From: Sphingomonas montanisoli
GTDB lineage: Bacteria > Pseudomonadota > Alphaproteobacteria > Sphingomonadales > Sphingomonadaceae
Assembly (NCBI RefSeq): GCF_008274695.1
Contig: NZ_VTOU01000002.1
Location: 558,001 to 622,000 of the forward strand
Direction of reading: 5' to 3'
DNA length: 64,000 nt
Part shown: in pieces, positions 25,009 through 40,013 of the stretch
How the letters are laid out: the number at the start of each line of letters is the position of its first letter
Position numbering within the stretch: the stretch's first letter is position 1
The notes under the pieces: generated by a model
The model's database searches: none
Told to the model about the DNA's origin: nothing
Seen by the model: the letters and a program-made list of their open reading frames with translations, nothing else
Position numbers and translations under genes: made by a program

Positions 25009-25022
25009 GGCGCACATGAAAA

Positions 25023-25042: not shown

Positions 25043-25072
25043 CTCATGGACCTCAGCTGCGGACGCCTGTTA

Positions 25073-25249: not shown

Positions 25250-25296
25250 GATACTCTCCTCATAAGGTGGTGTGGGGCTGTCCCATCAGGCTAATC

Positions 25297-25322
25297 AACC
25301 AACGAGATCGACCGCCCGTTCC
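25297..25322 (-). promoter_or_regulatory. possible EcfG-type promoter (GGAAC-N17-GGTT)
   Basis: Read on the minus strand, GGAAC (25322-25318) is followed by 17 nt and GGTT (25300-25297), 47 bp upstream of the 58-residue stress protein start. It matches the EcfG core with one -10 deviation (GGTT for CGTT). A chance match is possible. Confidence 0.4.
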
Positions 25323-25458
25323 TGTCGTTCCGCCTGCGGTGCTGATCTCGATCAGCACGAAAACATGGATGTCAGCCGTCCCGATGCTCGGCTTTGCGGC
25401 GCTTCTCGATGTCCTCGGGTTCTTCCTTGTCAATCGGGCCTAGACCGGTGCGCGCGCC

Positions 25459-25698
25459 CTAGTCGGCCTTCAGCAGTTCGTCGAGCTTGGCGTGGATCGC
25501 CTGGGTGTCGCGATGCTCGGCGCGCACGATCAGCAGGGTCATGAACCAGGTCGCGATCGTCGCGGCGCCATGCCAGTCGAACGTCTCGGGCTCGAGGATC
25601 AGCCAGGCGATCGTGAAGCTGATCAGGACCAGATAGGCGGCCGGGTGCGCGGTCCAGACGCCGAGCTTGGTCAGGAAGGAACGCGCGATGTTGGGCAT
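25459..25698 (-). CDS. low-affinity iron permease family protein, interrupted by an amber codon
   Basis: A 79-residue protein with two hydrophobic helices (about 22-36, 44-58) and the family segment IVRAEHRDTQAIHAKLDELL. The TAG at 25461-25459 is followed in the same frame by 28 more codons, to TGA at 25374-25372 (GARTGLGPIDKEEPEDIEKRR...). That is the expected C-terminal tail of the family. So the gene is amber-truncated or read through. A perfect EcfG promoter ends 8 nt before the ATG, implying a nearly leaderless mRNA. Confidence 0.72.
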   Translation of the reverse strand: MPNIARSFLTKLGVWTAHPAAYLVLISFTIAWLILEPETFDWHGAATIATWFMTLLIVRAEHRDTQAIHAKLDELLKAD

Positions 25699-25706
25699 GG
25701 CGGTTC

Positions 25707-25731
25707 AACGTCACGCCATCGCCGCCGTTCC
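25707..25731 (-). promoter_or_regulatory. EcfG-type promoter, perfect consensus
   Basis: The minus strand reads GGAAC (25731-25727), 16 nt, CGTT (25710-25707). This is exactly the GGAAC-N16-17-CGTT consensus of the alphaproteobacterial general stress sigma factor EcfG. The iron-permease ATG (25698) starts 8 nt beyond the -10 element, so transcription should start at or beside the start codon. Confidence 0.75.
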
Positions 25732-25837
25732 CGGCGGTGCAACCGGGGCGCCTTCGGCAATCGTCCTAACCTCCATCAGCCGTTCGGACATTCGCCGCAT
25801 TTCCAATGCCTTCGGGCGCGACGGCGCCGAAGGGAAA

Positions 25838-25862
25838 GGAACGACCCCGCAGCTCACACGCT
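25838..25862 (+). promoter_or_regulatory. possible EcfG-type promoter (GGAAC-N16-CGCT)
   Basis: GGAAC at 25838-25842, 16 nt, CGCT at 25859-25862, 44 bp before the Gln-rich small protein at 25907. One mismatch from the -10 consensus. Divergent to the perfect EcfG site at 25707-25731. Confidence 0.4.
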
Positions 25863-25906
25863 CTTCCCGCACGGCCCCGACAGCGGGCCGGTCTAGGAGA
25901 ATGACG

Positions 25907-26146
25907 ATGACCCAGAACAATCAGCAGGACGGCAATCGGACCAACATCGGCGGCGCGGGCCAGGGCAGTTCGGGCGGCCAGGATATGGATCGCGGCCAGC
26001 AGGACCAGCAGCGCCAGGGCCAGGTCGACCGCCAGCAGAACCAGCAACGCGGCACCCAGGACGACCGCGACCAGCAGGAGCGTGACCGCAAGGATCGCCT
26101 CGACCGCGACACCAGTGTCCAGGGCGACGATAGCGGACAGCGCTGA
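25907..26146 (+). CDS. Gln/Arg/Asp-rich disordered small protein
   Basis: A 79-residue, very hydrophilic protein (QQDQQRQGQVDRQQNQQRG, then repeated DR/DRDQQERDRK) with no hydrophobic segment, predicted disordered. TAGGAGA sits 7 nt before the ATG at 25907, so this start is preferred to ATG 25901. A strong terminator follows at 26166. Function is unknown; context and the upstream GGAAC element suggest a stress-induced protein. Confidence 0.7.
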   Translation: MTQNNQQDGNRTNIGGAGQGSSGGQDMDRGQQDQQRQGQVDRQQNQQRGTQDDRDQQERDRKDRLDRDTSVQGDDSGQR

Positions 26147-26165
26147 GCGATCGGCACCGCGTGAG

Positions 26166-26193
26166 GAAAGGGGCTTTCGGGCCCCTTTCTTTT
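26166..26193 (+). terminator. rho-independent terminator
   Basis: The stem GAAAGGGG / CCCCTTTC (arms 26166-26173 and 26182-26189) is followed by TTTT, 20 bp after the stop of the Gln-rich protein gene. Confidence 0.88.
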
Positions 26194-26198
26194 GCAAC

Positions 26199-26223
26199 GG
26201 AACGGCGACCTGCGCGCGTCGTT
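26199..26223 (+). promoter_or_regulatory. EcfG-type promoter, perfect consensus
   Basis: GGAAC at 26199-26203, 16 nt, CGTT at 26220-26223: an exact GGAAC-N16-CGTT match. It sits between the previous gene's terminator and the Shine-Dalgarno of the gene starting at 26247, 23 bp from the ATG. This is the expected placement for a real promoter. Confidence 0.82.
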
Positions 26224-26246
26224 TGCTGTTCCTAGAGGAGAGAGAC

Positions 26247-26483
26247 ATGACCGATGATGCTTTTGCGAACCGTCCGTCCGAGGCCGGTGCCGCGGCCGGT
26301 GGCCCCGCCGAGGATGGGATCGACGACGCCACGCTGACCGAGGCCCAGCGCAACGAGATCCGTCGCCGCCGCGCGATGGCGAGCGCGGTCGACGATGCCG
26401 ATGCCAGCCATGAAGGCGGCATGGGCGCGCAGGGCGGCGCGGTCGATTTCGGCAAACCGAAGAATTTCGGCCTGCCCGAGTGA
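26247..26483 (+). CDS. small acidic hypothetical protein under an EcfG promoter
   Basis: A 78-residue protein with an acidic N-terminus (EDGIDDATLTEAQRNEIRRR), one charged helix, and a Gly-rich tail ending GKPKNFGLPE. No known domain. GAGGAGAG precedes the ATG at 26247. The promoter at 26199-26223 is a perfect EcfG consensus and a hairpin follows, so this is a clean single-gene stress transcription unit. Confidence 0.78.
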   Translation: MTDDAFANRPSEAGAAAGGPAEDGIDDATLTEAQRNEIRRRRAMASAVDDADASHEGGMGAQGGAVDFGKPKNFGLPE

Positions 26484-26489
26484 GGACCG

Positions 26490-26514
26490 GGGGCGCCGGC
26501 CGCGCCGGCGCCCC
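26490..26514 (+). terminator. GC-rich terminator hairpin
   Basis: GGGGCGCCGGC (26490-26500), loop CGC, GCCGGCGCCCC (26504-26514): a perfect 11-bp stem just after the stop at 26483. Only a weak T run (GTTC) follows. Confidence 0.65.
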
Positions 26515-26535
26515 GTTCAAGCGTTGAGACGATCG

Positions 26536-26859
26536 ATGGCGACGAAGCATTTCACCCCCACCCTGCGCATGGCGTCGGCGGCCCGCCGGGGCCTGCGCCT
26601 GCGCGAAAAATTCAATCGCGGCGGCGCCCAGGTCGGCGTCGATCGCGCGCACCAGCTCGCCGAGCGGCGCGATGTCAGCGAAGCCGACGTCAAGGCGATG
26701 CACAGCTTTTTCGCCCGCCACGCGGTCGACAAGGACACCGCGACCCACAAGTGGGATTCGGACAGCGACCCGTCGGCCGGCTTCATCGCCTGGCTGCTGT
26801 GGGGCGGCGACGCCGGCAAGGCCTGGGCGGACGCCAAGGCCAAGGCGCTCGACGCCTGA
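26536..26859 (+). CDS. phage-type conserved protein (RGLRLR...WLLWGGDAG)
   Basis: A 107-residue basic protein with RGLRLREKFNRGGAQVGV, then MHSFFARHAVDK and PSAGFIAWLLWGGDAGKAWA. This pattern recurs in prophage-encoded proteins, where it is often a module of larger phage proteins; the function is not known to me. It is the first gene of a run that continues with a lipoprotein and a cation exporter. No Shine-Dalgarno is obvious before ATG 26536. Confidence 0.65.
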   Translation: MATKHFTPTLRMASAARRGLRLREKFNRGGAQVGVDRAHQLAERRDVSEADVKAMHSFFARHAVDKDTATHKWDSDSDPSAGFIAWLLWGGDAGKAWADAKAKALDA

Positions 26860-27329
26860 CCGGTCCGACCACTCCTCGCCGGGCCGCGCTGCTGTCGCTG
26901 GCGCTCCTCACCAGCCTTTCGGCGTGCGACGCGCTGCCGCGCGATCCCGAGGGCACGCTTGAACATGTGCGCGCGTCGAAGACGATCCGGGTCGGTCTCA
27001 CGCAGATGTCGCGAGCCGATCGCGCGATCGCCGACAAACTAATTTCTGTAGTCGCGCAGCGGACGGGCGCGCGTCCGACGCTGACGCCGGTGACCACCGA
27101 ACCGGCCTTCGCCGCGCTTGACGAGGGACGGCTCGATCTGGTGGTCGGCCCGTTCAGCGAGGACAGCCCCTGGGCGACCGACGTCGCCTTCGGCCCGCCG
27201 CTCAAGAAGGCGGGGAGCGAGGATCATCCGATTGAGGTGAAGGCGGCGATGCGAAATGGCGAGAATCGCTGGATCATGCTGGTCGAGGCGGCAAGCCGTC
27301 AGGTCTCGCCCGCGGTCGCGACCCAATGA
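26856..27329 (+). CDS. putative lipoprotein with solute-binding-like domain
   Basis: The signal sequence TPRRAALLSLALLTSLSAC ends in a good lipobox. It is followed by VRASKTIRVGLTQ and LDEGRLDLVVGPF, as in family-3 solute-binding proteins, but the protein (157 residues) is shorter than most. In this frame there is no ATG or TTG near the signal sequence. CTG at 26856, overlapping the previous stop (CTGA), gives a normal lipoprotein start. GTG 26799 or ATG 26751 would add an odd Arg-rich lead. Its stop overlaps the exporter ATG (ATGA). Confidence 0.6.
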   Translation: MTGPTTPRRAALLSLALLTSLSACDALPRDPEGTLEHVRASKTIRVGLTQMSRADRAIADKLISVVAQRTGARPTLTPVTTEPAFAALDEGRLDLVVGPFSEDSPWATDVAFGPPLKKAGSEDHPIEVKAAMRNGENRWIMLVEAASRQVSPAVATQ

Positions 27330-28264
27330 GCGACAACAGCCTGCCCTACGAACTGCGCGACACGATGCGCAAGGCGATCCGCCTCGAATATTGGAACATC
27401 TTCTGGACCGTGACGGTGATCGTCGCGATGGGCCTCGTCCTTGGCCAGTCGGAGACGATGAAGACCGCTTGGGTCGAGGATACGCTGGGGCTCGTCCCCC
27501 CAATCATGTTCCTAGTTGCCGCCCACATGGAGATGAAGGGAGAGCGATCCGAGCGCTTCCCCTTCGGCTTCGAGCGGGTCAACGGCCTCGGCTTCTTCCT
27601 CGCCGCGGTCGCGCTCGCCGCGGTCGGCGTGCTCCTGCTCTACAACGCCGTGATGGCGCTGGCGGCGCAGGAGCATGCGACCGTCGGTTCGGTCATGCTC
27701 TTCGGCCACGCGATCTGGCTGGGCTGGCTGATGATTGCAGCGCAACTCTATTCGCTCGTCCCGCCGATGATCATCGGTCGCAAGGAGCTGCCGCTCGCCG
27801 AAAAGCTCAACGACAAGCTGCTCCACACCGATGCGCTGATGAACAAGGCCAACTGGCTGACCGGCGCGGCCGGTCTGTTCGGCGTGATCGGTCTTGGTCT
27901 TGGCTGGTGGTGGGCGGACTCGGTCGCCGCCGCCCTGATCTCGGTCGACGTCATCAATGACGGGGTGAAGGCGCTGCGCTCGGCGACCGCCGAACTGGTC
28001 GACGGCCATCCGCGCGACCTGTCGAGCGTCGACCTCTCGCCCGAAGCGCGCGCGGTCGCCGAACGGCTCCAGGGCGAGTTTCCCGGGGCGACGATCCGGC
28101 TGCGCGAGACCGGCCGTCTGATCCGCGCCGAGGTCCATGACACCCACCCGCCGGAGGGCTGGCGCCATCCCCGCCATTATTGGCCGAAGGACGAGGACCG
28201 CGCCTGGCGCCTCGCGCAGGTGAGCTTCATCCCCCCGACCGAGGATGAGAGCGACCGGGGCTGA
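27326..28264 (+). CDS. cation diffusion facilitator-type transporter
   Basis: A 312-residue inner-membrane protein. Hydrophobic helices include WNIFWTVTVIVAMGLVLG, the VEDTLGLVPPIMFLVAA segment, GFFLAAVALAAVGVLLLY and the HTDALMNKANWLTGAAG metal-site helix. A soluble C-terminal domain follows (EVHDTHPPEGWRHPRHYW). It matches the divergent CDF branch with KTAW(V/I)EDTL. The substrate is probably a divalent metal. Its ATG overlaps the lipoprotein stop, so the two are translationally coupled. Confidence 0.8.
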   Translation: MSDNSLPYELRDTMRKAIRLEYWNIFWTVTVIVAMGLVLGQSETMKTAWVEDTLGLVPPIMFLVAAHMEMKGERSERFPFGFERVNGLGFFLAAVALAAVGVLLLYNAVMALAAQEHATVGSVMLFGHAIWLGWLMIAAQLYSLVPPMIIGRKELPLAEKLNDKLLHTDALMNKANWLTGAAGLFGVIGLGLGWWWADSVAAALISVDVINDGVKALRSATAELVDGHPRDLSSVDLSPEARAVAERLQGEFPGATIRLRETGRLIRAEVHDTHPPEGWRHPRHYWPKDEDRAWRLAQVSFIPPTEDESDRG

Positions 28265-28267
28265 GCG

Positions 28268-28834
28268 TCAGGCGGCCTGCGCGGGGGCGGCCGCGAGCGC
28301 GGCTTCGACCGCCGGCAGGAAGCCCTTGGCGATCAGCGTCGTGCCGGCGGCGTTGGGGTGAACCCGGTCGCGCAGGGTGAGCGCGGGATTGCCGAGCAGG
28401 CCCGGCGGCAGGAACGGCGCCAGCCCGGTGCCGTGGCGTTTGGCAAGTTCGGCATAGATCGCGGTGCAATTCTGGCCGAAGGCGCCGAGGAAGCGCGGCG
28501 CGTCCATCTGCGCGAGCAGCACCGGAAGCCCACAGCGCTTGAGCTCGGTCAGGATCGTATCGAGATTGGCCCGGGTCGTCTCAAGCGCGATCCCGCGCAG
28601 CAGATCATTGGCGCCGAGCTCGACGATCACGAGGTCGGGTCGGGCGGTCAGCTGGCTGAGGACGCGCGGCAGCCGCGCGACCGCGCTCGACGTCGTGTCG
28701 CCGGACAGGCCGGCGTTGATCACCGAGGCGTGCGGGTGGCGCGCCTGCAGGAGGGTCTCGAGTTGGCCGGCAAAACTCTGGGAGCGGGCAAGACCGTAGC
28801 CTTCGGTGAGGCTGTCGCCGAAGGCGAGGATCAG
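28268..28834 (-). CDS. SGNH/GDSL hydrolase (arylesterase type) with non-standard start
   Basis: A 188-residue esterase or thioesterase. All four SGNH blocks are present: AFGDSLTEGYGL (Ser), NAGLSGDT, ELGANDLLRG and DRVHPNAAG (Asp/His). Block I lies upstream of the GTG at 28723, so that GTG cannot be the true start. No ATG, GTG or TTG lies between the upstream flavodoxin stop (28901) and block I; CTG at 28834 (giving xILAFGDS) fits family N-termini. Start or pseudogene status is uncertain. It is the last gene of the long minus-strand run. Confidence 0.7.
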   Translation of the reverse strand: MILAFGDSLTEGYGLARSQSFAGQLETLLQARHPHASVINAGLSGDTTSSAVARLPRVLSQLTARPDLVIVELGANDLLRGIALETTRANLDTILTELKRCGLPVLLAQMDAPRFLGAFGQNCTAIYAELAKRHGTGLAPFLPPGLLGNPALTLRDRVHPNAAGTTLIAKGFLPAVEAALAAAPAQAA

Positions 28835-28900
28835 GGTGTCATAGGTTACGGATATGGGATCGGCTGCTCCGGTCCGCCAGTGGCCGCCGTGGAAGTCGCC

Positions 28901-29512
28901 CTAACCCGGATAAGGTTTGTCCTTGAGCAGCCGGGCGAGATGGCTGGCGTTCGACGCCACCATCTTCGCGGTTTTGGCGACCATTTCGGGAGTCTTCTTG
29001 AGGTCCTGAAAGTCGACCGACCCCATCGCCTCGCCGACCCAGTAGCAGGCGGCGACCGACGGGATCGTCCAGCCCGTGTCGTTCAACGACTGGAAGATCT
29101 GCGCTGACGAGAAATGAGCGCCGTCCTCATTGCCGACGATCGCGGCCACCGCGACCTTGGAGTAGCTCGGCATGCGCCCGGCCTCGTCGGTCTCGTCGAG
29201 GAAGGCGTCCATCCGCTCGAGCACGCGCTTGCCGACGCTCGAAACCTGCCCCATCCAGATCGGGGTGCCGAAGATGAGGATATCGGCGGTGAGGATCTTC
29301 TCGCGGATCTTGGGCCAGGCATCGCCCTCGCCCTCGTCGGACAAGACCCCGGGGAAGACGTCATGATCGGCGATCCGGATCGTCTCGGCGACGGTGACGC
29401 CCTTGGCTTTGAATTCCTTGGCGAGCAGCGCGATCATCGCGTCGGTCGAGCTGCTCTCGCCCGCCTTCGAGCGCTTGAGTGTGCAATTGATCGGTTGGGC
29501 CTTGAGCGCCAT
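28901..29512 (-). CDS. flavodoxin/NADPH-dependent FMN reductase family protein
   Basis: A 203-residue flavodoxin-fold protein. The N-terminal KRSKAGESSSTD is the FMN phosphate loop, ADILIFGTPIWMGQVSS binds the isoalloxazine, and AIVGNEDGAHF is the third loop. It probably reduces quinones or serves as a redox partner. AGAGGATT precedes ATG 29512. It lies 29 bp after the sorbosone dehydrogenase gene in the same direction. Confidence 0.85.
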   Translation of the reverse strand: MALKAQPINCTLKRSKAGESSSTDAMIALLAKEFKAKGVTVAETIRIADHDVFPGVLSDEGEGDAWPKIREKILTADILIFGTPIWMGQVSSVGKRVLERMDAFLDETDEAGRMPSYSKVAVAAIVGNEDGAHFSSAQIFQSLNDTGWTIPSVAACYWVGEAMGSVDFQDLKKTPEMVAKTAKMVASNASHLARLLKDKPYPG

Positions 29513-29541
29513 GGCGGGAATCCTCTCTAGGGTGAGACGCG

Positions 29542-30834
29542 TCAGCGCCGCGGCGCGACCCGCCAGACGGTGTTCGACAGGTCGTCAGCGACAAGCAGGC
29601 GCCGGCCGACCGGGTCATAGGCGACCCCCACCGGGCGGCCGCGGGCATGGCCGTCCTTGAGGAAGCCGGTCAGCACATCCTGCGGCTTGCCTGCCGGGCG
29701 GCCGTTCGCGAACGGCACCCAGACGACCTTGTAGCCCGACAGGTCCTGGCGGTTCCAGCTGCCGTGCTGGCCGACGAACGCCCCGTGTTTCCAAGGGCCG
29801 AGCCCCTCGCCGGAGACGAAGCTCAGGCCGAGTGCTGCGACATGCGAGCCGAGCGCGTAATCGGGGCGGATCGCCTTTTTCACCATCTCGGGCTTCTGTG
29901 GATGGACGCGCGGATCGGCGTTCGGGCCCCAATAGCTGTACGGCCAGCCATAGAAGCCGCCATCGCGGATCGAGGTCAGATAGTCGGGGACGAGTTGGGG
30001 TCCGAGTTCGTCGCGCTCGTTGGCGACCGTCCAGAGTTGCTTCGTCTCGGGCTGAATCGCCATCGCGGTCGGGTTGCGGGTGCCGGTCGCATAGGGCCGG
30101 TGCGCGCCGGTCACGCGATCGATCTCCCAGATCTGCGCCCGGTCCCCCTCGACGGCGAGGCCGCGCTCGCCGATATTGCTGTTCGAGCCGATGCCGACAT
30201 AGAGTTTGGTGCCGTCGGCGCTTGCGGCCAGCGACTTGGTCCAGTGATGGTTGATCCTGGAGGGCAGCTTGGTGACCTCGACGCCGGGGCCCGTGGCCTT
30301 GGTGTCGCCGTCGCGATAAGCGAAGCGCAGCAGCGCGTCCTGATCGGCGACGTAGATCTGGCCGTCGACAAAGGCGAGGCCATAAGGCGAGTTCAGCCCG
30401 TCGGCGAAGACCGTCCGGACCTCCGCCTTGCCGTCGCCGTCGCGATCGCGAAGCAGCGTGAGGCGGTTGCCGCCTTTGACATCGGTCTTGCCGCGCGCCT
30501 TGATCAGCCCGGCGATCACATCCTTCGGCCTGAGCGCCGGCGCCGACTGGCCCGAGCCCTCGGCGACGAGGATGTCGCCATTGGGCAGCACCAGCATCTG
30601 GCGCGGGACCTTGAGGCCGGTCGCGAGCGCGGTGACGGTGAAGCCGTCGGGCGCCTTCGGTGTCTCGCCCTCCCAGCCCACCGGGGTCGCGATCTTCATC
30701 GGCGGCAGCAAGGTCTCGCGCTGCGCGGGGAGATTGGGGTCGGCGCCCTCCTGGTCGATGCCCGGGCGGCTCTGACCGCAGCTGGCAAGAGCCAGCGCGA
30801 GCGCGCTGACGGCGATGAGATTGCGCGCGACCAT
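29542..30834 (-). CDS. sorbosone dehydrogenase-like PQQ beta-propeller lipoprotein
   Basis: A 430-residue lipoprotein (lipobox LALASC, Cys19). The propeller has LPNGDILVAEG, NSPYGLAFVDG, GTRNPTAMAIQP, GGFYGWPYSYWG and VGQHGSWNRQDLSG, the pattern of PQQ-dependent L-sorbosone/soluble glucose dehydrogenases. It likely oxidises an aldose or aldehyde in the periplasm. Two adjacent ATGs (30837, 30834) follow GGAGGAG; 30834 has the better spacing and overlaps the DUF2231 stop. Confidence 0.88.
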   Translation of the reverse strand: MVARNLIAVSALALALASCGQSRPGIDQEGADPNLPAQRETLLPPMKIATPVGWEGETPKAPDGFTVTALATGLKVPRQMLVLPNGDILVAEGSGQSAPALRPKDVIAGLIKARGKTDVKGGNRLTLLRDRDGDGKAEVRTVFADGLNSPYGLAFVDGQIYVADQDALLRFAYRDGDTKATGPGVEVTKLPSRINHHWTKSLAASADGTKLYVGIGSNSNIGERGLAVEGDRAQIWEIDRVTGAHRPYATGTRNPTAMAIQPETKQLWTVANERDELGPQLVPDYLTSIRDGGFYGWPYSYWGPNADPRVHPQKPEMVKKAIRPDYALGSHVAALGLSFVSGEGLGPWKHGAFVGQHGSWNRQDLSGYKVVWVPFANGRPAGKPQDVLTGFLKDGHARGRPVGVAYDPVGRRLLVADDLSNTVWRVAPRR

Positions 30835-31259
30835 CATGCGCTCCTCCGGCGGCTGAAGGCGATCCAGCCCGCGCCAAGCGCAAGGACCGCGCTCACGATC
30901 GATAGGATCAGCCCGGTCGTCTCGACCGAACTCCATCCGTCGCGGCTGTGCTGGAAGGCGTTGATGAGGCCGACGATCCACATCACCGCGAGCAGGACGA
31001 ACAGGAGCAAGCCGCGCTTGGCGACAGCCGTGCGGCTCAGCCGGATCGCGTCGACCACCGACCAGAGCACGGCGAAGCCGCCGACTAACAAGGCGCCGGC
31101 GTTGAGCCAGGCCGCGAAGTTGGTCCACTGGACCTCGGCCGTGTTGAGATAGGTGATGTCGGCAAAGAGCGCGCTCGGGAAGAGCGCGATCGGGAAGGCG
31201 AGCAACAGCCCGTGGAGCGGGTGCAGCAGCGGCTGGGTGCCGGGTGGGGTGGCGGTCAC
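30834..31259 (-). CDS. DUF2231 membrane protein
   Basis: A 141-residue protein with four hydrophobic helices. The starting block LLHPLHGLLLAFPIALFPSA is the His-containing DUF2231 signature, and NAFQHSRDGW lies between helices 3 and 4. DUF2231 proteins often pair with redox or heme proteins; the role is unknown. It is translationally coupled (TGATG) to the sorbosone dehydrogenase-like gene, so the two may form a membrane dehydrogenase unit. Confidence 0.82.
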   Translation of the reverse strand: MTATPPGTQPLLHPLHGLLLAFPIALFPSALFADITYLNTAEVQWTNFAAWLNAGALLVGGFAVLWSVVDAIRLSRTAVAKRGLLLFVLLAVMWIVGLINAFQHSRDGWSSVETTGLILSIVSAVLALGAGWIAFSRRRSA

Positions 31260-31342
31260 GCGAAGAGTCTCCGGAACGGCAGGACGGGCGGCAATCGAAT
31301 GCGTCGGGCCCGCAGACGTTCCGCGCGCCCTCGCTTGGCGGA

Positions 31343-32428
31343 TCAGGCGGGCAGGTCGGCGTGGCGTGGTTCGTGAATCGGGCAGCCGTTGAAGCGGCTG
31401 CGTGTCTCGACCGATGCCGCATAGACCGGCTTGCGCGCGCGCATCACCGCCCCGAGCGGGCGGTGCGCCTGGATCCCGTGCCAGGGGTTGAACGAGGTCT
31501 GATCGTCGAGGATGCGGGCCCGCGCGTCATTCCACGCCGCCTGTGCGGGCACCTCGATCCGCGCGACCGCGATATAGGGGTTGTCCTCTTCGGGCCAGGC
31601 GACCGAGGCGTCCTCGATCGGATTGGCCTCGAGATCGCGGCAGAGCTGGACCCGCAATTCCCAGGCGCCGCCGTCGCGCGCCAGGGTCGACCCGATCTCC
31701 TCGCGCAGCGCATTGTCGCGCCCGTCGATGTCGATCTCTTCGTCGGCGAGTGCCGTGAAATTGGGCGAGAGCGGGAACAGCCCGAGCTTGGCGATATAGT
31801 CGCCATAGCGGATTGGCGCCTGGCTGAAGAAGGTCTCGCCGAGCGGATGGGTGTGGCGGTGACCGCCGAGCTGTTCGAGAAAGCCGCTTTCGCCGCCGAC
31901 GGCCTCGACGCCCTTCTCGAGCGTGCGGAACACCGCGGAGACGGCCTTCTTCAGCCCCTCGACCTTGTCGGTCGTCTTGGCGAGAAGCTTCAGATTGCCG
32001 AGGAATTTCTTCGGGCCCGGTGCCGGGAAGGCGATGCCGTTGGCGAGGAGGAAATCCTGGGTGCTGTCGCCTTCACTGCCCTCGAGCCGGTCGCCGCCCA
32101 CATCGAGCACCTTGATGCCGATCCCGCGCAGCAGCGAGATGCTGTCGGGTAGGACGTCACCCGCGCCGGTCGAGATGCGGATCAGGGCGTCATGCCGGCC
32201 GGGGGTCGCGAACAGGCCTTGGGCAAGTTCGGCGGGGAGATCGTCGAGGACGGTGAAGCTTCCTTGGAGGAGCGCATGGCTCTTGGCGTGGACGCCGCGA
32301 AAGCCATGGCCGCTGTCGGCGTGGGTCGTCTCCTGGATCGATCGGAAGGTCTCGATCAGTTCGGCTTGGACCTCGGCTTCGTCAGGTTCGATCGTCTCGA
32401 CATCGGGGGTGTAGCGGACGGGGGTCAT
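31343..32428 (-). CDS. catalase-family heme protein (SrpA-like, small)
   Basis: A 361-residue member of the catalase fold family that lacks the full length of classical catalases. It has HGFRGVHAKSHALLQGSFTV (distal His region), HDALIRISTGAGDVLPDS, QDFLLANGIAFPAPG and a C-terminal SFNPWHGIQAHRPLGAVMRAR holding the proximal region. It is probably a peroxidase or catalase-related protein. AAGGATT precedes ATG 32428. It follows the DUF4267-like gene by 64 bp in the stress operon. Confidence 0.85.
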   Translation of the reverse strand: MTPVRYTPDVETIEPDEAEVQAELIETFRSIQETTHADSGHGFRGVHAKSHALLQGSFTVLDDLPAELAQGLFATPGRHDALIRISTGAGDVLPDSISLLRGIGIKVLDVGGDRLEGSEGDSTQDFLLANGIAFPAPGPKKFLGNLKLLAKTTDKVEGLKKAVSAVFRTLEKGVEAVGGESGFLEQLGGHRHTHPLGETFFSQAPIRYGDYIAKLGLFPLSPNFTALADEEIDIDGRDNALREEIGSTLARDGGAWELRVQLCRDLEANPIEDASVAWPEEDNPYIAVARIEVPAQAAWNDARARILDDQTSFNPWHGIQAHRPLGAVMRARKPVYAASVETRSRFNGCPIHEPRHADLPA

Positions 32429-32492
32429 GGGCAATCCTTTTGGTTGTCGAGATCGAGGAGAAGGCGGGAGGTACGGCTGTCGTCGTGAAAGA

Positions 32493-33685: not shown

Positions 33686-33697
33686 GTGCGTCTCTCC

Positions 33698-34891
33698 TCA
33701 GGCGACCGTGCCAGCGGCGAAGTCGGGCTTGAGCACGACCTTGGTCACTTCATTCTGGTTGTCGTGGAACATCTGGTAGCCCTTGGGGGCATCCTCGAGC
33801 GCCATGCGGTGCGAAATCAGGAAGGTCGTATCGATCTTGTCCTCGATGATGGCGTTCAGGAGCGCGGGCATATAATGCTGGACGCTGGTCTGGCCGGTCT
33901 TGAGCGTCAGCCCTTTCTCCATGAAGGCGCCCAACGGAAACTTGTCGACGATGCCGCCATAGACGGCCGGCATCGAGACGCGGCCGCCCTTGCGGCAGGC
34001 GACGATCGCCTGGCGGATCGAATGAATGCGATCGGTACCGAGGAAGGTCGATTTCTTGATCTGGTCGATGACATTATCGACGAAGAAGCCATGGGCTTCC
34101 AGGCCCACCGCGTCGATCACCGCATCGGGACCGATCCCGCCGGTCATCTCCATCAGCGCCTCATAGGTGGCGCTCTCCTCGAAGTTGATCGTCTCCGCGC
34201 CGAACCTCTTGGCCAGATCGAGCCGGTGCGGGAAATGATCGATCGCGATGACCCTTTCGGCGCCCATGAGAAACGCCGATTGCACCGCGAACAGCCCGAC
34301 CGGGCCGCAGCCCCAGACCGCGACGGTATCGCCGGGCTCGATCCCGGCATTCTCGGCCGCCTGCCATCCGGTCGGCAGGATGTCCGAGAGGAAGAGGACC
34401 TTTTCGTCCTCTATCCCGTCAGGGATCACGATCGGGCCGACATCGGAGAAGGGGACGCGGACATATTCGGCCTGACCGCCGGCATAGCCGCCGGTGAGAT
34501 GGCTGTAGCCGAACAGGCCGGACATGGGCTGACCGTAAAGCTCCTGGCCGATGTCCTGCTTGTCGGCGGGGTTGCCGTTGTCGCACGCGGAATATTGGTG
34601 CTTGCCGCAGTGGTAGCAGCTGCCGCACGCGATGGTGAACGGCACCACGACACGCTGGCCCTTCTTCAGGGTCGACTTGGGACCGGTCTCGACGACCTCA
34701 CCCATGAATTCATGGCCGAGGATGTCGCCCGCCTGCATGGTCGGGATATAGCCGTCGTAGAGATGGAGGTCGGAGCCGCAGATCGCGGTCGAGGTGATCT
34801 TGATGATCGCGTCGCGCGGGTTGAGGATCTCGGGATCGTCGACGGTGTCGACGCGGACGTCATGCTTGCCGTGCCAGGTGAGAGCGCGCAT
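33698..34891 (-). CDS. zinc-dependent alcohol dehydrogenase (glutathione-independent formaldehyde dehydrogenase-like)
   Basis: A 397-residue medium-chain dehydrogenase. The catalytic zinc ligands are in [11 protein letters not shown] and GHEFMGEV, the structural zinc Cys cluster is [15 protein letters not shown], and the NAD loop is [11 protein letters not shown]. Length and the inserted [20 protein letters not shown] match the formaldehyde-dismutase/dehydrogenase branch. It lies 6 bp after the SRPBCC gene. Likely role: aldehyde detoxification under stress. Confidence 0.9.
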
Positions 34892-34897
34892 CGCGGG

Positions 34898-35488
34898 TTA
34901 GTCCTTCTCTTCTTCGAGCTGCGCGCGCGTCCGCGATGCGGTCGCGATCTCGCCGGTCTCCATCAGTTGCTTGAAGCGCCTGAGATCGCGGCGCGCCTGG
35001 ATCGCGGGCTCGCGCTGGAACATCTTGGCGATGAGCTTGCCGACGAGGCCGGCGGGCGGGTCATAGACGATCGTGGCGGTGACGATCGTGCCGCGCGCGC
35101 CAGCGTCGCGGAAGTCGATGCGGCCGCTGTTGGGAACGTCGGCGCCCTCGGTCGAGGCCCAGGCGATCGTCTCGCCGTCTTTCTCCTCTGTGATGACCGC
35201 ATCCCATTCGACGGTCTTGCCGCCGGGCGCCTTCACCACCCAGTGCGACGTGGCGGCGTCCTTCACTATGACCGAGACGATATTGTCCATGAAGGTCGGC
35301 AGGTTGGTGAAGTCGCGCCAATAGGCGAACAGCTCGGCGCGCGGCCGGTTGATCGTGACTGTTCGTCCGACCAGGCTGTCGCCTTTTGCCTCGACCAGCT
35401 CGGCGGTGGCCCGATCGATCGCGGCGCCCGCATGTTTGGACGTCGAGAGCGGCGCGTCGTCGGCTCTCATGTCGGCTGTGTCGCTCAT
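34898..35488 (-). CDS. SRPBCC (polyketide cyclase/dehydrase-fold) protein
   Basis: A 196-residue protein with an SRPBCC domain from about residue 40: TVTINRPRAELFAYWRDF, then NLPTFMDNIVSVIV, WVVKAPGGKTVEWDAVITEE and IVTATIVYDPPAG. These helix-grip proteins bind hydrophobic ligands. The N-terminal 35 residues are disordered. It is the first gene of a run of up to nine co-directional genes ending at 28268. A near-perfect EcfG promoter lies 39-63 bp upstream. Confidence 0.85.
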   Translation of the reverse strand: MSDTADMRADDAPLSTSKHAGAAIDRATAELVEAKGDSLVGRTVTINRPRAELFAYWRDFTNLPTFMDNIVSVIVKDAATSHWVVKAPGGKTVEWDAVITEEKDGETIAWASTEGADVPNSGRIDFRDAGARGTIVTATIVYDPPAGLVGKLIAKMFQREPAIQARRDLRRFKQLMETGEIATASRTRAQLEEEKD

Positions 35489-35526
35489 GATCGGCTTGTC
35501 TTTCGGGAAGGCGGATGAGCCCGTTC

Positions 35527-35551
35527 AACAGTTCGGGCTCCTCGCCGTTCC
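35527..35551 (-). promoter_or_regulatory. EcfG-type promoter of the SRPBCC-led operon
   Basis: The minus strand reads GGAAC (35551-35547), 16 nt, TGTT (35530-35527). The conserved GTT core and spacing fit EcfG; only the first -10 base differs. It leaves a leader of about 30 nt before ATG 35488. Confidence 0.65.
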
Positions 35552-35649
35552 GGTCGTTTCGTCGGCTCAAGGACTGCAACCAATCGGCGGTTCGGGGGTT
35601 CGCGGAGCCGTGGGTCCGCGCGTGGGGCCGCATCGGCGTCCGCAGGGCG

Positions 35650-35667
35650 AACCGGACCGGTCCGGTT
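35650..35667. promoter_or_regulatory. 18-bp perfect palindrome AACCGGACCGGTCCGGTT
   Basis: A perfect palindrome in the 308-bp divergent region between the SRPBCC operon and the hemerythrin gene. Its core CGGACCGGTCCG recurs at 35729-35740. It may be an operator for a dimeric regulator. The rest of the region (35489-35796) contains no gene. Confidence 0.5.
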
Positions 35668-35728
35668 GATCTGAATCATGTCGATTTGTCGCCCAGCACC
35701 GTTCAGATCTGGCGGTGGGGCGGAACAG

Positions 35729-35740
35729 CGGACCGGTCCG
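35729..35740. promoter_or_regulatory. second CGGACCGGTCCG palindrome
   Basis: A 12-bp perfect palindrome identical to the core of 35650-35667, with centres 76 bp apart (about seven helical turns), 57 bp before the hemerythrin ATG. Two sites in phase suggest cooperative binding; this is inference. Confidence 0.45.
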
Positions 35741-35796
35741 AGGAGTCTTGAGCGGACGGGCGCGCCGCGCGCCTCCCTACAGAACGGAGACGCCAC

Positions 35797-36306
35797 ATGA
35801 CCGAAACTTACACCGATGCCATTGCGCTGTTGAAGGCCGACCACCGCAAGGTCGAGGGCCTGTTCGAGCAATATGAGAAGGCGACCGCCGACACCAAGAA
35901 GAAGGCGCTCGCGCATCAGATCTGCACCGAGCTCAAGATCCACACGATGCTCGAGGAGGAGATCTTCTATCCGGCGTTCCGCGGCAAGATCGAGGACGAC
36001 ACGCTCGACGAGGCTTATGTCGAGCATGACGGCGCCAAGGTGCTGATTAACGACATCGAGGCGAACGAGCCCGGCGCGCCGTTCTTCGACGCCAAGGTGA
36101 AGGTGCTCTCCGAAGAGATCTCCCACCATGTGAAGGAAGAGGAGATGCCCTCCGAGGGCATGTTCGCCCAGTGCCGCAAGACCGATGTCGATCTCGTCGC
36201 GCTGCGCGACGCGATGCTGGAACTCAAGGCCGAGCTGATGGAGCAGGCCGAAGGCGCGGGCCTCGCTCCCGCCAAGACCACCGCGGTCAACCCGGTCGCC
36301 GCCTGA
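35797..36306 (+). CDS. hemerythrin domain-containing protein
   Basis: A 169-residue four-helix protein. Di-iron ligand positions are visible: LLKADHRKVEGLFEQY, TELKIHTMLEEEIFYPAF, EHDGAKVLI and ISHHVKEEEMPSEGMF, i.e. the His/Glu set of HHE domains. It may bind oxygen, nitric oxide or sense redox. The C-terminal tail is Ala-rich. CGGAGACGCCAC precedes ATG 35797. It is followed by its own terminator. Confidence 0.92.
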   Translation: MTETYTDAIALLKADHRKVEGLFEQYEKATADTKKKALAHQICTELKIHTMLEEEIFYPAFRGKIEDDTLDEAYVEHDGAKVLINDIEANEPGAPFFDAKVKVLSEEISHHVKEEEMPSEGMFAQCRKTDVDLVALRDAMLELKAELMEQAEGAGLAPAKTTAVNPVAA

Positions 36307-36317
36307 CCGACCCTATC

Positions 36318-36350
36318 CCGGGCGGCCGCGCGCCGCCCGGTTCCTTTCTG
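36318..36350 (+). terminator. terminator after the hemerythrin gene
   Basis: The stem CCGGGCGGC / GCCGCCCGG (36318-36326 and 36332-36340) is followed by TTCCTTTCTG. Confidence 0.78.
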
Positions 36351-36368
36351 CTAGTGTGAGACCCGCTC

Positions 36369-36953
36369 ATGGCCTCTGCGCCGCCCCTGACCGCGCCCGA
36401 CTTCCAGACCCCCGCAATCCTGCTGTCGGGTCCGGTTGATTATGACATGTATCGCGACTTCCGCGCGAAGCTTGAGCCTGCGCTTGGCCAGACCGGCGAT
36501 GGCGACCGCATTCATGTCGAGCTGTCGACCCTCGGCGGCGACCCCGAAGTCGCGCGGATGATGGGCGAGGACATCCGTTTCCACTCCGACCTCCATCCAA
36601 GCCGCCGCTTCGTCTTCCTGGGCAAGGCCGCGATCTATTCGGCGGGGACGACCTTCATGTCGTTCTTTGCGATCGAGAACCGCTATCTGACCCGCGGCAC
36701 CCGGCTAATGATCCATGAGCGCAAGATGTCGAAGACGCTCCAGATCGAAGGCCCGCTCACCACCTGTATCGCCAGCGTCACGGCGACCCTGCACGAAATC
36801 GAAAGTTCGATCGCGATCCAGAATGAGGGCTTCGAGAATCTGATTCGCGGCAGCCAGGTGACGATGGCGACCGTCCTCGAGAAGGCGCCGTCCAACTGGT
36901 ATATCGAAGCCAATGAGGCGGTCGACCTCGGCCTCGTCACAGCGGTCATCTGA
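36369..36953 (+). CDS. ClpP-like serine protease (family S14), stand-alone
   Basis: A 194-residue ClpP/crotonase-fold protein. VELSTLGGDPEVARMMG corresponds to the ClpP N...SPGG loop region, GKAAIYSAGTTFMSFF carries the candidate catalytic Ser, and RLMIHERKM the catalytic His. The canonical SPGG is altered to TLGGD, and no Clp ATPase gene is nearby. It may be a ClpP paralog with restricted substrates or a pseudoenzyme. It is probably in one unit with the following 111-residue gene. Confidence 0.75.
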   Translation: MASAPPLTAPDFQTPAILLSGPVDYDMYRDFRAKLEPALGQTGDGDRIHVELSTLGGDPEVARMMGEDIRFHSDLHPSRRFVFLGKAAIYSAGTTFMSFFAIENRYLTRGTRLMIHERKMSKTLQIEGPLTTCIASVTATLHEIESSIAIQNEGFENLIRGSQVTMATVLEKAPSNWYIEANEAVDLGLVTAVI

Positions 36954-36970
36954 AAGACCAAGCGCTAACC

Positions 36971-37306
36971 ATGCGCGCCCGTCTCGTCCCGCCGGTGACG
37001 CCCGACGGCCGCTATATCGTCGTGCGCGGGCGGCTCTGGCGGTGGGCCAATCCGCATCTTTCCGAGGCCGAGCGCACGCGTATGGTCGGCGAACTGATGA
37101 CCGCGCGGCGGGCGGTCGGGGTTGCGCGACGGGCGGGGGACGGCGATGCCGAGAGCGCCGCGCATGTCGCGGTCGACGCCGCGAAGCGCGCTTTAGGGGA
37201 ACGCGGGCCGGTCTGGTGGGACGATGGCGCGCCCGACCTCAACCGCCACATGGCGCGAACAACGAACTACGCCCACTGGTATGTCGGTCTCGAGGGCGCG
37301 CCCTAG
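36971..37306 (+). CDS. conserved hypothetical protein (TPDGRYIVVRGRLWR type)
   Basis: A 111-residue basic protein beginning VTPDGRYIVVRGRLWRWANP. A helix-rich middle (SEAERTRMVGELMTARRAV) follows, then VDAAKRALGERGPVWWDDGAPDLNRHMA. I recall the pattern from small proteins near stress genes in sphingomonads, but no function is known. It lies 17 bp after the ClpP-like gene and is followed by a strong terminator. Confidence 0.72.
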   Translation: MRARLVPPVTPDGRYIVVRGRLWRWANPHLSEAERTRMVGELMTARRAVGVARRAGDGDAESAAHVAVDAAKRALGERGPVWWDDGAPDLNRHMARTTNYAHWYVGLEGAP

Positions 37307-37313
37307 ACATGCG

Positions 37314-37346
37314 AAGGGCCGCGCCTCCTGGGAGTGCGCGGCCCTT
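37314..37346. terminator. strong bidirectional terminator
   Basis: AAGGGCCGCGC (37314-37324) pairs perfectly with GCGCGGCCCTT (37336-37346). A/T-containing flanks on both sides let it serve the 111-residue gene on the plus strand and any transcript arriving on the minus strand. Confidence 0.85.
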
Positions 37347-37385
37347 CCATTGTTCAGTCCTCCGCCAGCGTGGCGACTGCGGTCC

Positions 37386-37457
37386 TCAGACCGATGCTCC
37401 ATGGGAGCCGATCGAACCTTCAGTGCGTGCCGCTTCGGACATGAGACAATGAGACAT
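37386..37457 (-). CDS. tiny ORF (23 codons) with an ideal Shine-Dalgarno
   Basis: ATG at 37457 is preceded by AAAGGAGGTGAT, a complete anti-SD complement at good spacing. The frame encodes MSHCLMSEAARTEGSIGSHG and ends at TGA 37388-37386, shortly before the bidirectional terminator at 37314-37346. No homolog is known to me. The unusually strong ribosome site is the main support. Confidence 0.4.
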   Translation of the reverse strand: MSHCLMSEAARTEGSIGSHGASV

Positions 37458-37525
37458 CCGATCACCTCCTTTCAATTGTTGACGATGATCGGGAGATGGG
37501 AACGAAGTCCCCCGTTGTGAAGGGA

Positions 37526-37774
37526 TTAGACCCCGTCGGGGCGGCTGTCGGCGCGATCCTCTTCGGGATAGTCCTCGGGCTCGACCGTCCCGACCGACGG
37601 CCGATCTTCGACGCCTTCCTGGGGCTGGCCGCCGCGCGTGCGCGGGTCAGGGTCCTGCGCGTTCGGCCGGGCGTCGCCGGCAGGGCCCCGGCGGGGCATG
37701 TCGTCGGCCTGCTTGGCGTCGGGGGCGAGCGCGCTGTCGGGGCTCGGGTCGAGGCTGTCGGGGGTATCGGACAT
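37526..37774 (-). CDS. acidic, disordered hypothetical protein
   Basis: An 82-residue protein rich in Asp, Pro, Glu and Gly (MSDTPDSLDPSPDSALAPD; later VEPEDYPEEDRADSRPDG). It has no hydrophobic segment and is likely disordered. CCAGGAGAC precedes ATG 37774, supporting this start. It is one of several small hydrophilic proteins in the island; function is unknown. Confidence 0.68.
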   Translation of the reverse strand: MSDTPDSLDPSPDSALAPDAKQADDMPRRGPAGDARPNAQDPDPRTRGGQPQEGVEDRPSVGTVEPEDYPEEDRADSRPDGV

Positions 37775-37833
37775 CGTTTGTCTCCTGGCTAAGTTGGGGC
37801 GGGCAGTGCGATTGTGTCGCCGCAGTGGTGCAA

Positions 37834-38016
37834 TCACCCCTTCTTGTTGGGGAGGCCCTTACGCTTGGTGTGGGCGAACTCCTCAAGCTGTTTCTCTGTC
37901 ATCGACTCCTCCATCTGCTTGGAGGCACCTTTGAGCTTCGATTTCGGTTCATCGCCGCGCTTGGCGGCCAGTGCTGCGCCGGCGGCTTTCTGCTGGGCTT
38001 TGGATGTGGCGGGCAT
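37834..38016 (-). CDS. DUF3008 family protein
   Basis: A 60-residue basic protein (MPATSKAQQKAAGAALAAKR, then SKLKGASKQMEESM and LEEFAHTKRKGLP), matching the compact DUF3008 pattern over its full length. Members are short, charged and of unknown role, often beside stress genes. ACAGGAGATTGCC precedes the ATG. Confidence 0.85.
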   Translation of the reverse strand: MPATSKAQQKAAGAALAAKRGDEPKSKLKGASKQMEESMTEKQLEEFAHTKRKGLPNKKG

Positions 38017-38124
38017 GGCAATCTCCTGTCGCGGTCAAACGCTTTTGAACGGCTCCCGATCCCGCTGCCGGACATCGGACCGGCTTCGCGCGTTGGGTGC
38101 GCGACGAAGGAAGAGGAGAATGTC

Positions 38125-38322
38125 ATGGACCGAGCCAACATCTCGACTGCGCACCAGCCCAAAGGCAGTGACCGCAACCCGAGCGACACTCTCGACAAGT
38201 CCGAGGCGGCAGACGCGCATGTCGGCGAACCCACCGACAAGAGCCCCCGAAAGCGCGGAGCCCCCGATGTGGTCGACGAGAAAGGACGGCCGATCAATGG
38301 CGACGGTACGCTGAAGGATTAA
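38125..38322 (+). CDS. small hydrophilic hypothetical protein
   Basis: A 65-residue protein with no hydrophobic core (SDRNPSDTLDKSEAADAHVG, then KSPRKRGAPDVVDEKGRPI). AGAGGAGAATGTC gives a clear ribosome site before ATG 38125. It is divergent from the DUF3008 gene. Likely disordered; function is unknown. Confidence 0.65.
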   Translation: MDRANISTAHQPKGSDRNPSDTLDKSEAADAHVGEPTDKSPRKRGAPDVVDEKGRPINGDGTLKD

Positions 38323-38391
38323 GGTGGAGGCAGGGTCGAGGGCCCTGACTATGATCGCGGACAGCGCGAGGGACTGCGCCTTCCCCTAGCC

Positions 38392-38595
38392 GTGCTCACC
38401 GCCGAGGAAGCGAAGTGGGCGGCGTTACTCGGCGAGAGCAGGTCTTGGCGGACCAACCAGACGCGTGAAATTCGCCATAAGACCCTTCAGGTTGCGCAGA
38501 GCAGGATCCAGACCGTCCTCAAGCGATTGTCTTCGAAGGACGATGCCGCTTCGCGCGGTGAGTTGGCGGCGACGCTCGATAAACTTGGCCTCTGA
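38392..38595 (+). CDS. possible small helical protein
   Basis: A 67-codon frame from GTG 38392 (LTAEEAKWAALLGES, then HKTLQVAQSRIQTVLKRLS and ASRGELAATLDKLGL) predicts an amphipathic helical protein. There is no good Shine-Dalgarno and no family match known to me. Codon use is less GC-biased than in its neighbours. It may be a short real gene or a remnant. Confidence 0.38.
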   Translation: MLTAEEAKWAALLGESRSWRTNQTREIRHKTLQVAQSRIQTVLKRLSSKDDAASRGELAATLDKLGL

Positions 38596-38695
38596 GCGAT
38601 CTGGGCTGGCTATTCCTGCTCTTCCCGAATCGCGCTGAGTCGGACTAGATCGGGCGCAGCTTGCCGCTACGGCGGCTGCGAGCGATGAGGAGCCC

Positions 38696-38986
38696 ATGCC
38701 ATACCGCGCCGCCGTCATCGGCGATCTTGAGCTTGTCGACATCGATCGTGAAGGTCCCACTCCGGCTTTCCTCGGAAAGATCGATGAGCATCCTTTGATC
38801 GTCCGCTTCGACGTCGCGGCGCTCGCGGCGTTGGCGGGTAGGGTAGGGCCTGGTGACGCGGTGACCGAAGCGTTGCGTGCCCGGGCGCCAGCGATAAAGG
38901 CTGCAGCGCAGGACTTGCTCGCGGGCGGCTATTGGACCGAAACCGACGACGGGATCGAAATCCTGATCACGGCGCTGGACCTCTAA
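38696..38986 (+). CDS. small hypothetical protein (DUF1488-like)
   Basis: A 96-residue protein. LIVRFDVAALAALAG, then EALRARAPAIKAAAQDLLAGG and ETDDGIEILITALDL, resemble the short DUF1488 fold. The last 20 bp overlap the convergent monooxygenase remnant, and the monooxygenase homology stops at this point, suggesting a rearrangement junction near 38990. Function is unknown. Confidence 0.55.
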   Translation: MPYRAAVIGDLELVDIDREGPTPAFLGKIDEHPLIVRFDVAALAALAGRVGPGDAVTEALRARAPAIKAAAQDLLAGGYWTETDDGIEILITALDL

Positions 38987-39971
38987 ACTCCAGGGCGCTG
39001 CCGATATCGCCGTGCCGGGCAAGTTCTCCGGCGAGGACGTAGGCGCCAGTTAGCGCGAGCGTTGCGCCGATCCCGCCGAGCGGGGTTACTGCCCAGGCGG
39101 CATCACCTGTCAGCACGACGCAACCGTTCGACCAACGCGGCATGCGGACCTGGCGCAGCGCATCGAAGTAGAAGTCGTCGGTCGATTCCATGCCTGCAAG
39201 CACGCGCGTCGCCTGCCATCCTGCGTCGGCGAAGGTCTCGCGCAGCCATGCCTTCTGCCGTTCGACCGGCCAGTCTTCTTCGCCATGCGCCTTCATCTGA
39301 ACGGACAGGGTCGCGCGCGCGGTACCGTGGCGATCGGGTCGCAGTGAGATGCTGCGGCCACCGATCGTATGATACCAGCGCCACATTCGGTCATCGTCGG
39401 CTGCGCGCGGAATGGTGAAATAGGCGGTCGTCAGGTCCATCCAGCGAGGATCATTTTCTTCCCGAAAGACCAGCTCGCGCGTCGCCGAGCCGACGCCCTC
39501 GGCGACGATGACAAGGTCATAGCGTTCGCGCGCACCGCTCTCGAAGTGGACGGTGGCACCGTCGGAGTCCTCATCGACCGCGCAAACATGATCCCCGAAG
39601 CGGAAGGTCGCGTAGTCCTGCGCAGGTTCGTAGATCAACCGGGCGAGATCGCCGCGCAATATCTCCATCTCGGCGGTCGGGCCGTCGCCATCGAGCTGCG
39701 ACGCGAGGAAGCAGGCGGCCGGCGTGCCGTCAGCCTTTATCCAGACAGTGCCCTCTTCGCCGGTGCCCTGGCGTAGCGCCTGATCCTCGAGCCCCATGCG
39801 GCGGATGACCTCGCGGCCGACGCCGCGCACATCGATATTCTGGCCGCCGTCGCGGAAAGCGGGCGCGCGTTCGACGACCGTCACGTCATGACCCTGGCGG
39901 CCGAGCCAGTAGGCAGCGGCGTTGCCGGCGATGCTGGCGCCCGTGACGAGGATCTTGTGGGAAATGGCGAT
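38967..39971 (-). pseudogene. FAD-dependent monooxygenase, damaged at both ends
   Basis: A PHBH-type flavoprotein. The Rossmann loop KILVTGASIAGNAAAYWLG, then VIVAEGVGSATRELVF and the second FAD motif VVLTGDAAWAVTPLGGIGA, are intact. No ATG, GTG or TTG precedes the Rossmann loop. AAGGAG at 39978-39973 is followed by ATC (39971) and a well-spaced ATT (39965) where an ATG is expected. The C-terminus stops at SALEFRGPAP, before the usual last 60-90 residues. An EcfG-like element lies just upstream. Confidence 0.7.
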
Positions 39972-39988
39972 GCTCCTTGTCGCGGGAG

Positions 39989-40013
39989 AACCGCGTGGGT
40001 GCCGTCCTGTTCC
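39989..40013 (-). promoter_or_regulatory. possible EcfG-type promoter (GGAAC-N16-GGTT)
   Basis: The minus strand reads GGAAC (40013-40009), 16 nt, GGTT (39992-39989). It lies right before the AAGGAG of the damaged monooxygenase, in the katE-divergent region. One base off the -10 consensus. Confidence 0.5.

Follow-up and report, generated by a model that had tools for sequence, protein, structure and literature searches.

A stranded tRNA-Gln island in Sphingomonas montanisoli with probable stress operons and EcfG-type promoters

The sigma factor EcfG is limited to alphaproteobacteria according to PMC3892343, and its regulons in Sphingomonas melonis Fr1 (PMC6599016) and Sphingopyxis granuli TFA (PMC7083833) comprise catalases, csbD, a Zn-dependent alcohol dehydrogenase and many hypothetical proteins. 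The stress kinase PakD of Fr1 is plasmid-encoded, and the term 'genomic island' is absent from the main text of the same paper (PMC6599016). Stress-protection genes on a laterally transmitted genomic island are known from the transmissible locus of stress tolerance (tLST), whose own cargo consists of ClpK, heat-shock proteins, FtsH and DegP, which is controlled by multiple, partly unknown factors and which occurs in partial forms in some alphaproteobacteria (PMC8290217). Here we describe a 22.2-kb island in the genome of Sphingomonas montanisoli (4.1 Mb in 15 contigs), located in a 64-kb part of contig 8 that is called the window below and to which positions refer unless a contig is given. It can best be seen as an integrated, now stranded set of stress operons that come with EcfG-type promoters of their own. 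It resembles the regulons of Fr1 and TFA in promoter form, spacing, distance to the start codon, regulators and several types of cargo, and differs from them in that a site-specifically inserted island holds further operons of this kind. With tLST it shares stress-protection cargo on an acquired island; unlike tLST, it has EcfG-type promoters, and the Pfam matches of its 30 genes include a ClpP-like protein but no ClpK/FtsH/Hsp20-type module. Among titles and abstract openings of the open literature, a search outside which most subscription papers lie, none was on the subject of an EcfG-wired genomic island. We consider it likely that the locus is an integrative element at the 3' end of tRNA-Gln that has lost most of its integrase and carries stress operons with at least seven promoters of EcfG form under host control.

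The 3' end of the tRNA-Gln gene, ACGGGGCATCCA, forms together with the next G a sequence of 13 bases that recurs at the right border of the island (Table). In the related genome G006, ppx, the tRNA and the monooxygenase gene (position 46932 in the window) are direct neighbours; the flanks of the window both align to this single site, where they join at the repeat. Therefore the 22.2 kb between the repeats are an insertion, and direct repeats together with an empty site in a relative show a past, site-specific integration at tRNA-Gln. An Rfam scan detected nothing besides the tRNA. Just before the integrase pieces lies the 3' part of a tRNA-Glu, which over 53 nucleotides shares 98% identity with a locus where tRNA-Glu(CTC) is intact, and which may be an older attachment (att) site or the scar of an earlier element. 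As in other tRNA-associated tyrosine-integrase elements, target, repeat and an integrase with an intact Phage_integrase relative are present; the difference lies in the state of the integrase, of which the pieces match residues 1-47 and 297-424 of a protein of 426 amino acids (aa) from genome G002, with about 250 residues missing, and which is not a working enzyme. A Pfam search of both pieces gave no match, and they were recognised via this relative. No transfer or replication gene was recognised among the Pfam matches of the 30 island genes, small open reading frames being outside that search. The preliminary description of the stretch had called the island mobile, which is right for its past insertion and does not extend to present mobility.

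For the analysis of the promoters, a matrix of the -35 and -10 boxes with a spacer of 16 or 17 was derived from 23 promoters of EcfG-dependent genes of Fr1 in Table 1 of PMC6599016 (score of at least 10 in that table, unstarred, at most 154 bp from the start), which themselves score 10.9-16.9. Sites of at least 12 were found 8-47 bp upstream of 7 of the 30 island genes, namely those of the 58-aa, 79-aa, 78-aa, DUF2231, SRPBCC, DUF3008 and FAD monooxygenase-like proteins. Column-shuffled matrices led to a maximum of 4 genes (n=600; no gene in 534) and shuffled upstream sequences to a maximum of 3 (n=300). All seven -10 boxes occur among the 23 training promoters, and so does the GGATC -35 box of the DUF3008 site. 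At a score of at least 13, 7 sites, including one without a near start codon at 35576(+) (score 13.1), compare with an expectation of 1.46 based on 441.5 kb of this genome (P 0.0008; P 0.001 to 0.03 at other thresholds), a background which probably includes genuine EcfG targets, among them a second PhyR-like gene, so identified by eye. When genes were called with a rough caller, sites of at least 12 precede 5 of 18 island and 17 of 282 background genes in these 441.5 kb (P 0.006), and sites of at least 14 precede 2 of 18 and 10 of 282 (P 0.16, not significant); as the caller under-called and overlooked 12 of our 30 genes, including two with strong sites, these P values are only a guide. Under a strict start-codon rule, a start follows 5 of 8 island sites and 22 of 64 background sites, compared to 1 of 2 and 8 of 54, respectively, for the reversed motif. 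The strong signal is the position before start codons, not the motif count. All six sites of the preliminary description could be located, each facing a start codon 8-47 bp away; the two given as perfect are exact GGAAC-N16-CGTT, and the four with one mismatch are correctly oriented, although that at 25838 is weak. Two further sites, before the DUF2231 and DUF3008 genes, had been missed. The best site of the hemerythrin gene reaches 7.9, with a conserved GGAAC and an unusual -10 box. As a separate observation, GGAAC is kept upstream of this gene in the window (35700-35797), on contig C9 of the same genome and in G006, where the site ends 49-52 bp before the start and AGTC or CGTC stands in place of NGTT, a possible variant -10 box.

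Conservation before orthologues could be followed for two of the seven genes. The 78-aa gene occurs in 2 of 13 other genomes of the genus and in 5 of 60 genomes overall, own included, without a match among plasmids; its nine named protein matches are eight Sphingomonas records and a weak match of 29 residues in a record labelled Psychrobacter. Elsewhere it lies away from tRNA-Gln (in G006 on contig 3, with the tRNA on contig 5; in G010 about 540 kb apart). A perfect GGAAC-N16/17-CGTT with differing spacer letters is located 22-37 bp upstream in all seven relatives, after omission of L107 and L110, which repeat G010 and G024, and of L109, L111 and L112, which begin too far inside the protein. 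For the SRPBCC gene, 19 of 29 relatives have a site of at least 11.5 and the best site starts with GGAAC in 24 of 29 (L076 and L082, which failed the start or upstream rules, were left out). Reversed controls gave 0 of 7 and 3 of 29 for the two genes, and the operon-internal starts of the alcohol dehydrogenase (ADH) and SDR genes gave 0 of 31 and 0 of 27. A strong site was also present before katE in one of three and before the hemerythrin gene in one of four relatives scored. For the other five sites the only source of orthologues was plasmid pSH1 of Sphingobium xenophagum, where a site scoring 13.1 ends 3 bp before the DUF2231 gene.

Plasmid pSH1 carries a katE relative, xth, SRPBCC-ADH-SDR, ligD and Ku, with sites of 12-13 before SRPBCC, DUF2231, ligD and Ku. 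Its region of 70-118 kb (L124) was noted separately for holding monovalent cation/H+ antiporter genes beside catalase, xth, SRPBCC-ADH-SDR, CsbD, ligD and Ku, with EcfG-type sites before several of its annotated genes. From 88 plasmid records with an SRPBCC match, 21 loci were examined, which are not independent because several are near-identical (pBAR3/pSES220; V4/pMSHV). A site of at least 11.5 near the SRPBCC start was detected at 11 of 16 alphaproteobacterial loci, at none of five from Deinococcus and cyanobacteria, and on five of six conjugative plasmids (typing by PLSDB), and conjugative pSWIT01 of Rhizorhabdus wittichii RW1 has SRPBCC-ADH with a perfect site. The alphaproteobacterial misses are the two Novosphingobium plasmids examined and one Paracoccus plasmid, while the loci of S. 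parapaucimobilis and Croceicoccus have weak sites of 10.0 and 10.2, respectively.

The ClpP-hemerythrin / SRPBCC-ADH-SDR core block of the island has a second, resident copy at 236-242 kb of contig C9 (89-90% identical in nucleotides, 88-98% in proteins). The core block could thus be a within-genome duplicate of the C9 cluster that was caught by the tRNA element, and its wiring would then have been copied from the host with no gain by transfer. Host-like GC of the island agrees with such an origin, as does the comparison of 33 SRPBCC-ADH pairs (at least one genome, G206, being present twice), where the island and C9 copies are mutually nearest at 90.4% nucleotide identity and the next reaches 84%. 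Just two stretches of the island, however, match C9 at 88% or more, and the island katE protein has 58% identity to its C9 counterpart, compared to 88% for that of pSH1, to which the 58-aa protein and the xth piece are also 83-84% identical. Moreover, the divergence of the block resembles that of two species at the flanks, which are 90-92% identical between S. montanisoli and G006 (the own block of G006 is 81.5% identical to that of the island). Duplication from C9 therefore appears rather unlikely to us, and the core block appears to be the version of a related species, differing from the resident copy about as much as the flanks of the two genomes differ. Because of the resident copy and the sites at 11 of 16 alphaproteobacterial plasmid loci, the promoter wiring seems to be a property of the gene families. 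We tentatively propose that EcfG-driven stress operons, with their own promoters, circulate between the chromosomes, tRNA islands and conjugative plasmids of sphingomonads, as a ready-wired pool that an EcfG-bearing alphaproteobacterium could use at once, and that plasmid relatives of the operon in bacteria without EcfG would lack the site.

In the host genome there are genes for NepR and PhyR and, next to them, for an ECF (extracytoplasmic function) sigma factor, which has a perfect site before its own gene and which we take to be EcfG from this neighbourhood of phyR and nepR and from what is generally known of such loci. A matrix from another species, the position of the sites, their conservation before orthologues and these regulators support the proposed EcfG wiring well at the level of sequence; that promoters of this form are under EcfG control we infer from the published work on Fr1 and Sphingopyxis and from the general model of the PhyR-NepR-EcfG switch. 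A -35 box of GGAAC type is common to several ECF groups, and together with the unusual -10 box behind the conserved GGAAC of the hemerythrin gene this may point to another ECF sigma factor reading the sites. We regard such a reading as improbable, as the seven strong sites all combine N16-17 spacing with -10 forms of EcfG-dependent training promoters and a perfect site precedes the ecfG candidate of the host. EcfG promoters with CATT or TGTT as -10 box exist in Sphingopyxis, where a change to CGTT raised transcription in vitro (PMC7083833). Independently of the island, the second PhyR-like gene mentioned above (C1:250307, L053) was found to have GCAAC-N16-CGTT 30 bp upstream, and the next gene, CsbD-like by eye, has a similar site.

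Several results weigh against an EcfG-wired block of foreign origin. The GC content of the island (65.5%) is close to that of a host sample (64.9%), and its composition therefore does not point to a foreign origin. Plain counts of the motif are not raised, with 15 matches in the window at one mismatch allowed (13.5 expected), and genome-wide with 27 exact N16 motifs (37 for the reversed control) and 133 sites of GGAAC-N16/17-NGTT (72+61, compared to 148, or 108+40, reversed); the N17 motif is commoner, with 28 to 14. The matrix scan of the 30 genes gave no strong site before the katE operon, the ClpP and transglutaminase genes and others. On pSH1, neither the catalase nor the 58-aa orthologue has a site of at least 10, of which the latter counts against conservation. 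Antisense controls reached 2 of 7 for the 78-aa gene and 7 of 29 for SRPBCC, and on plasmids 7 of 14 alphaproteobacterial loci score at least 11.5 in antisense, compared to 0 of 5 others; a divergent hemerythrin or PRC-barrel gene at some of these loci suggests that the high scores reflect overlapping divergent promoters. Finally, the training promoters are themselves motif-selected, as they had been chosen by motif search in PMC6599016. Chance matches in a GC-rich genome, which the loose-motif counts near control values would allow, are nevertheless very improbable in view of position, orientation, shuffle tests and conservation.

The bolder claim that the island is a mobile EcfG regulon, as had been proposed, is overstated. 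The seven strong promoters head at most 18 of the 30 genes, assuming that co-directional runs are operons. Five of the 133 genome-wide sites fall into the island, where 0.72 would be expected (P about 0.0009), yet resident 22-kb windows equal or exceed this number with 7 (C9 203-209 kb), 6 (C8 685-707 kb, which holds the regulators) and 5 sites (C8 201 kb), some of them inside coding sequence, as at C8 685 kb. With equally or more site-rich resident regions and a resident copy of its core block, the island is not unique in the genome. In a search of 397 genomes of the family, own included, with the 1-2 best candidates scored per genome, the longest of the matches listed outside the own island was about 4.1 kb; the same island was not found elsewhere among the matches listed from the 396 other genomes. 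A side observation concerns C9 203-242 kb (L021, L102, L103), where the 22-kb window with seven sites is followed further on by a katE homologue and the close copy of the core block. Also noted were EcfG-type sites that overlap on opposite strands, where the -35 box (GGAAC) of one shares bases with the -10 box (GTTCC) of the other (L128, L129, L132, L133, L134; in S. montanisoli C10:34447, C10:180259 and C8:201478); they are possible two-way stress promoters.

The 30 island genes were assigned by eye and with Pfam, with additional use of NCBIfam; 11 of them have no Pfam match at 0.01. A stress-protective role of the cargo is likely from the protein families. The cargo includes the katE-type catalase, hemerythrin, zinc alcohol dehydrogenase, small hydrophilic proteins and DUF3008. 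The second 'catalase' (31343-32428) is named by eye only, without a match in Pfam or NCBIfam and with two parts matching pSH1. The SRPBCC-ADH-SDR set is widespread in the family, and the phasin-like protein has an NCBIfam match under the family cut-off. The genes behind the 78-aa gene (26536-28264) are possibly co-transcribed with it, and the DUF2231 to GDSL hydrolase genes may form an operon.

Table. Coordinates of the island, its borders, genes and candidate EcfG-type sites in the window
Position	Strand	Feature	Basis
24446..24519	+	tRNA-Gln (CTG), integration target	ARAGORN, Rfam
24508..24520	+	att repeat, left copy, ACGGGGCATCCAG	sequence repeat, comparison with G006
24521..46734	.	inserted island, 22.2 kb	empty site in G006
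24685..25008	+	exonuclease III gene (3' fragment, 5' part missing) near left border; 84% identical to pSH1 xth	Pfam
25073..25249	-	58-aa hydrophilic protein; 'CsbD-like' by eye only	no Pfam/NCBIfam match
25297..25322	-	GGAAC-N17-GGTT, 47 bp before 58-aa gene	score 13.8
25459..25698	-	79-aa protein, Iron_permease family	Pfam
25707..25731	-	perfect GGAAC-N16-CGTT, 8 bp before 79-aa gene (nearly leaderless)	score 16.5
25838..25862	+	GGAAC-N16-CGCT, weak, 44 bp before Gln-rich gene	score 10.4
25907..26146	+	Gln-rich hydrophilic protein	no Pfam/NCBIfam match
26199..26223	+	perfect GGAAC-N16-CGTT, 23 bp before 78-aa gene	score 16.5
26247..26483	+	78-aa hydrophilic protein	no Pfam/NCBIfam match
26536..28264	+	107-aa protein without family; weak solute-binding-like protein (under Pfam cut-off); cation efflux family protein	
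28268..31259	-	DUF2231, glucose/sorbosone-dehydrogenase-like, FMN reductase, GDSL hydrolase	Pfam
31298..31322	-	GGAAC-N16-CATT, 38 bp before DUF2231	score 15.0
31343..35488	-	SRPBCC, zinc alcohol dehydrogenase, SDR, 124-aa protein, catalase-like protein	
35527..35551	-	GGAAC-N16-TGTT, 38 bp before SRPBCC	score 14.0
35797..37306	+	hemerythrin-domain protein, ClpP-like protein, 111-aa protein	Pfam
37526..38016	-	DUF3008 and acidic 82-aa protein	Pfam
38038..38062	-	GGATC-N16-CGTT, 21 bp before DUF3008	score 12.4
38988..39968	-	FAD-binding monooxygenase-like protein	Pfam
39989..40013	-	GGAAC-N16-GGTT, 20 bp before monooxygenase-like gene	score 14.4
40189..44895	+	long catalase (katE type), phasin-like, FAD/NAD-binding protein, DUF1543; matrix scan without a strong site	
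44905..45744	-	transglutaminase-like protein	Pfam
45990..46042	-	tRNA-Glu, 3' part	identity to place with intact tRNA-Glu(CTC)
46220..46687	+	tyrosine-integrase remnant, three frames	matches to 426-aa relative in G002
46722..46734	+	att repeat, right copy; direct G006 match resumes here	repeat, alignment with G006

From these features, the element integrated in this sphingomonad at the 3' terminus of the tRNA-Gln gene, and most of the integrase would have been lost afterwards, timing and source being what we infer; the cargo consists of likely stress operons, the core of which is common in the family. A stressor would act via PhyR, NepR would then release EcfG, and RNA polymerase with EcfG would read the island promoters, leading to hydrophilic proteins, oxidoreductases and the products of an alcohol/aldehyde-type dehydrogenase operon. 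As the genes take their promoters along, host stress control of the cargo would be in place on arrival, and since the promoters are of the general-stress type, the island probably plugged straight into the alarm system of its host. It thus offers a concrete case of gained stress genes arriving with promoters that fit a conserved alarm system of the host, by which a newly gained block could be regulated at once, and it raises the testable question whether the survival gain from such cargo is limited to hosts with PhyR-NepR-EcfG.

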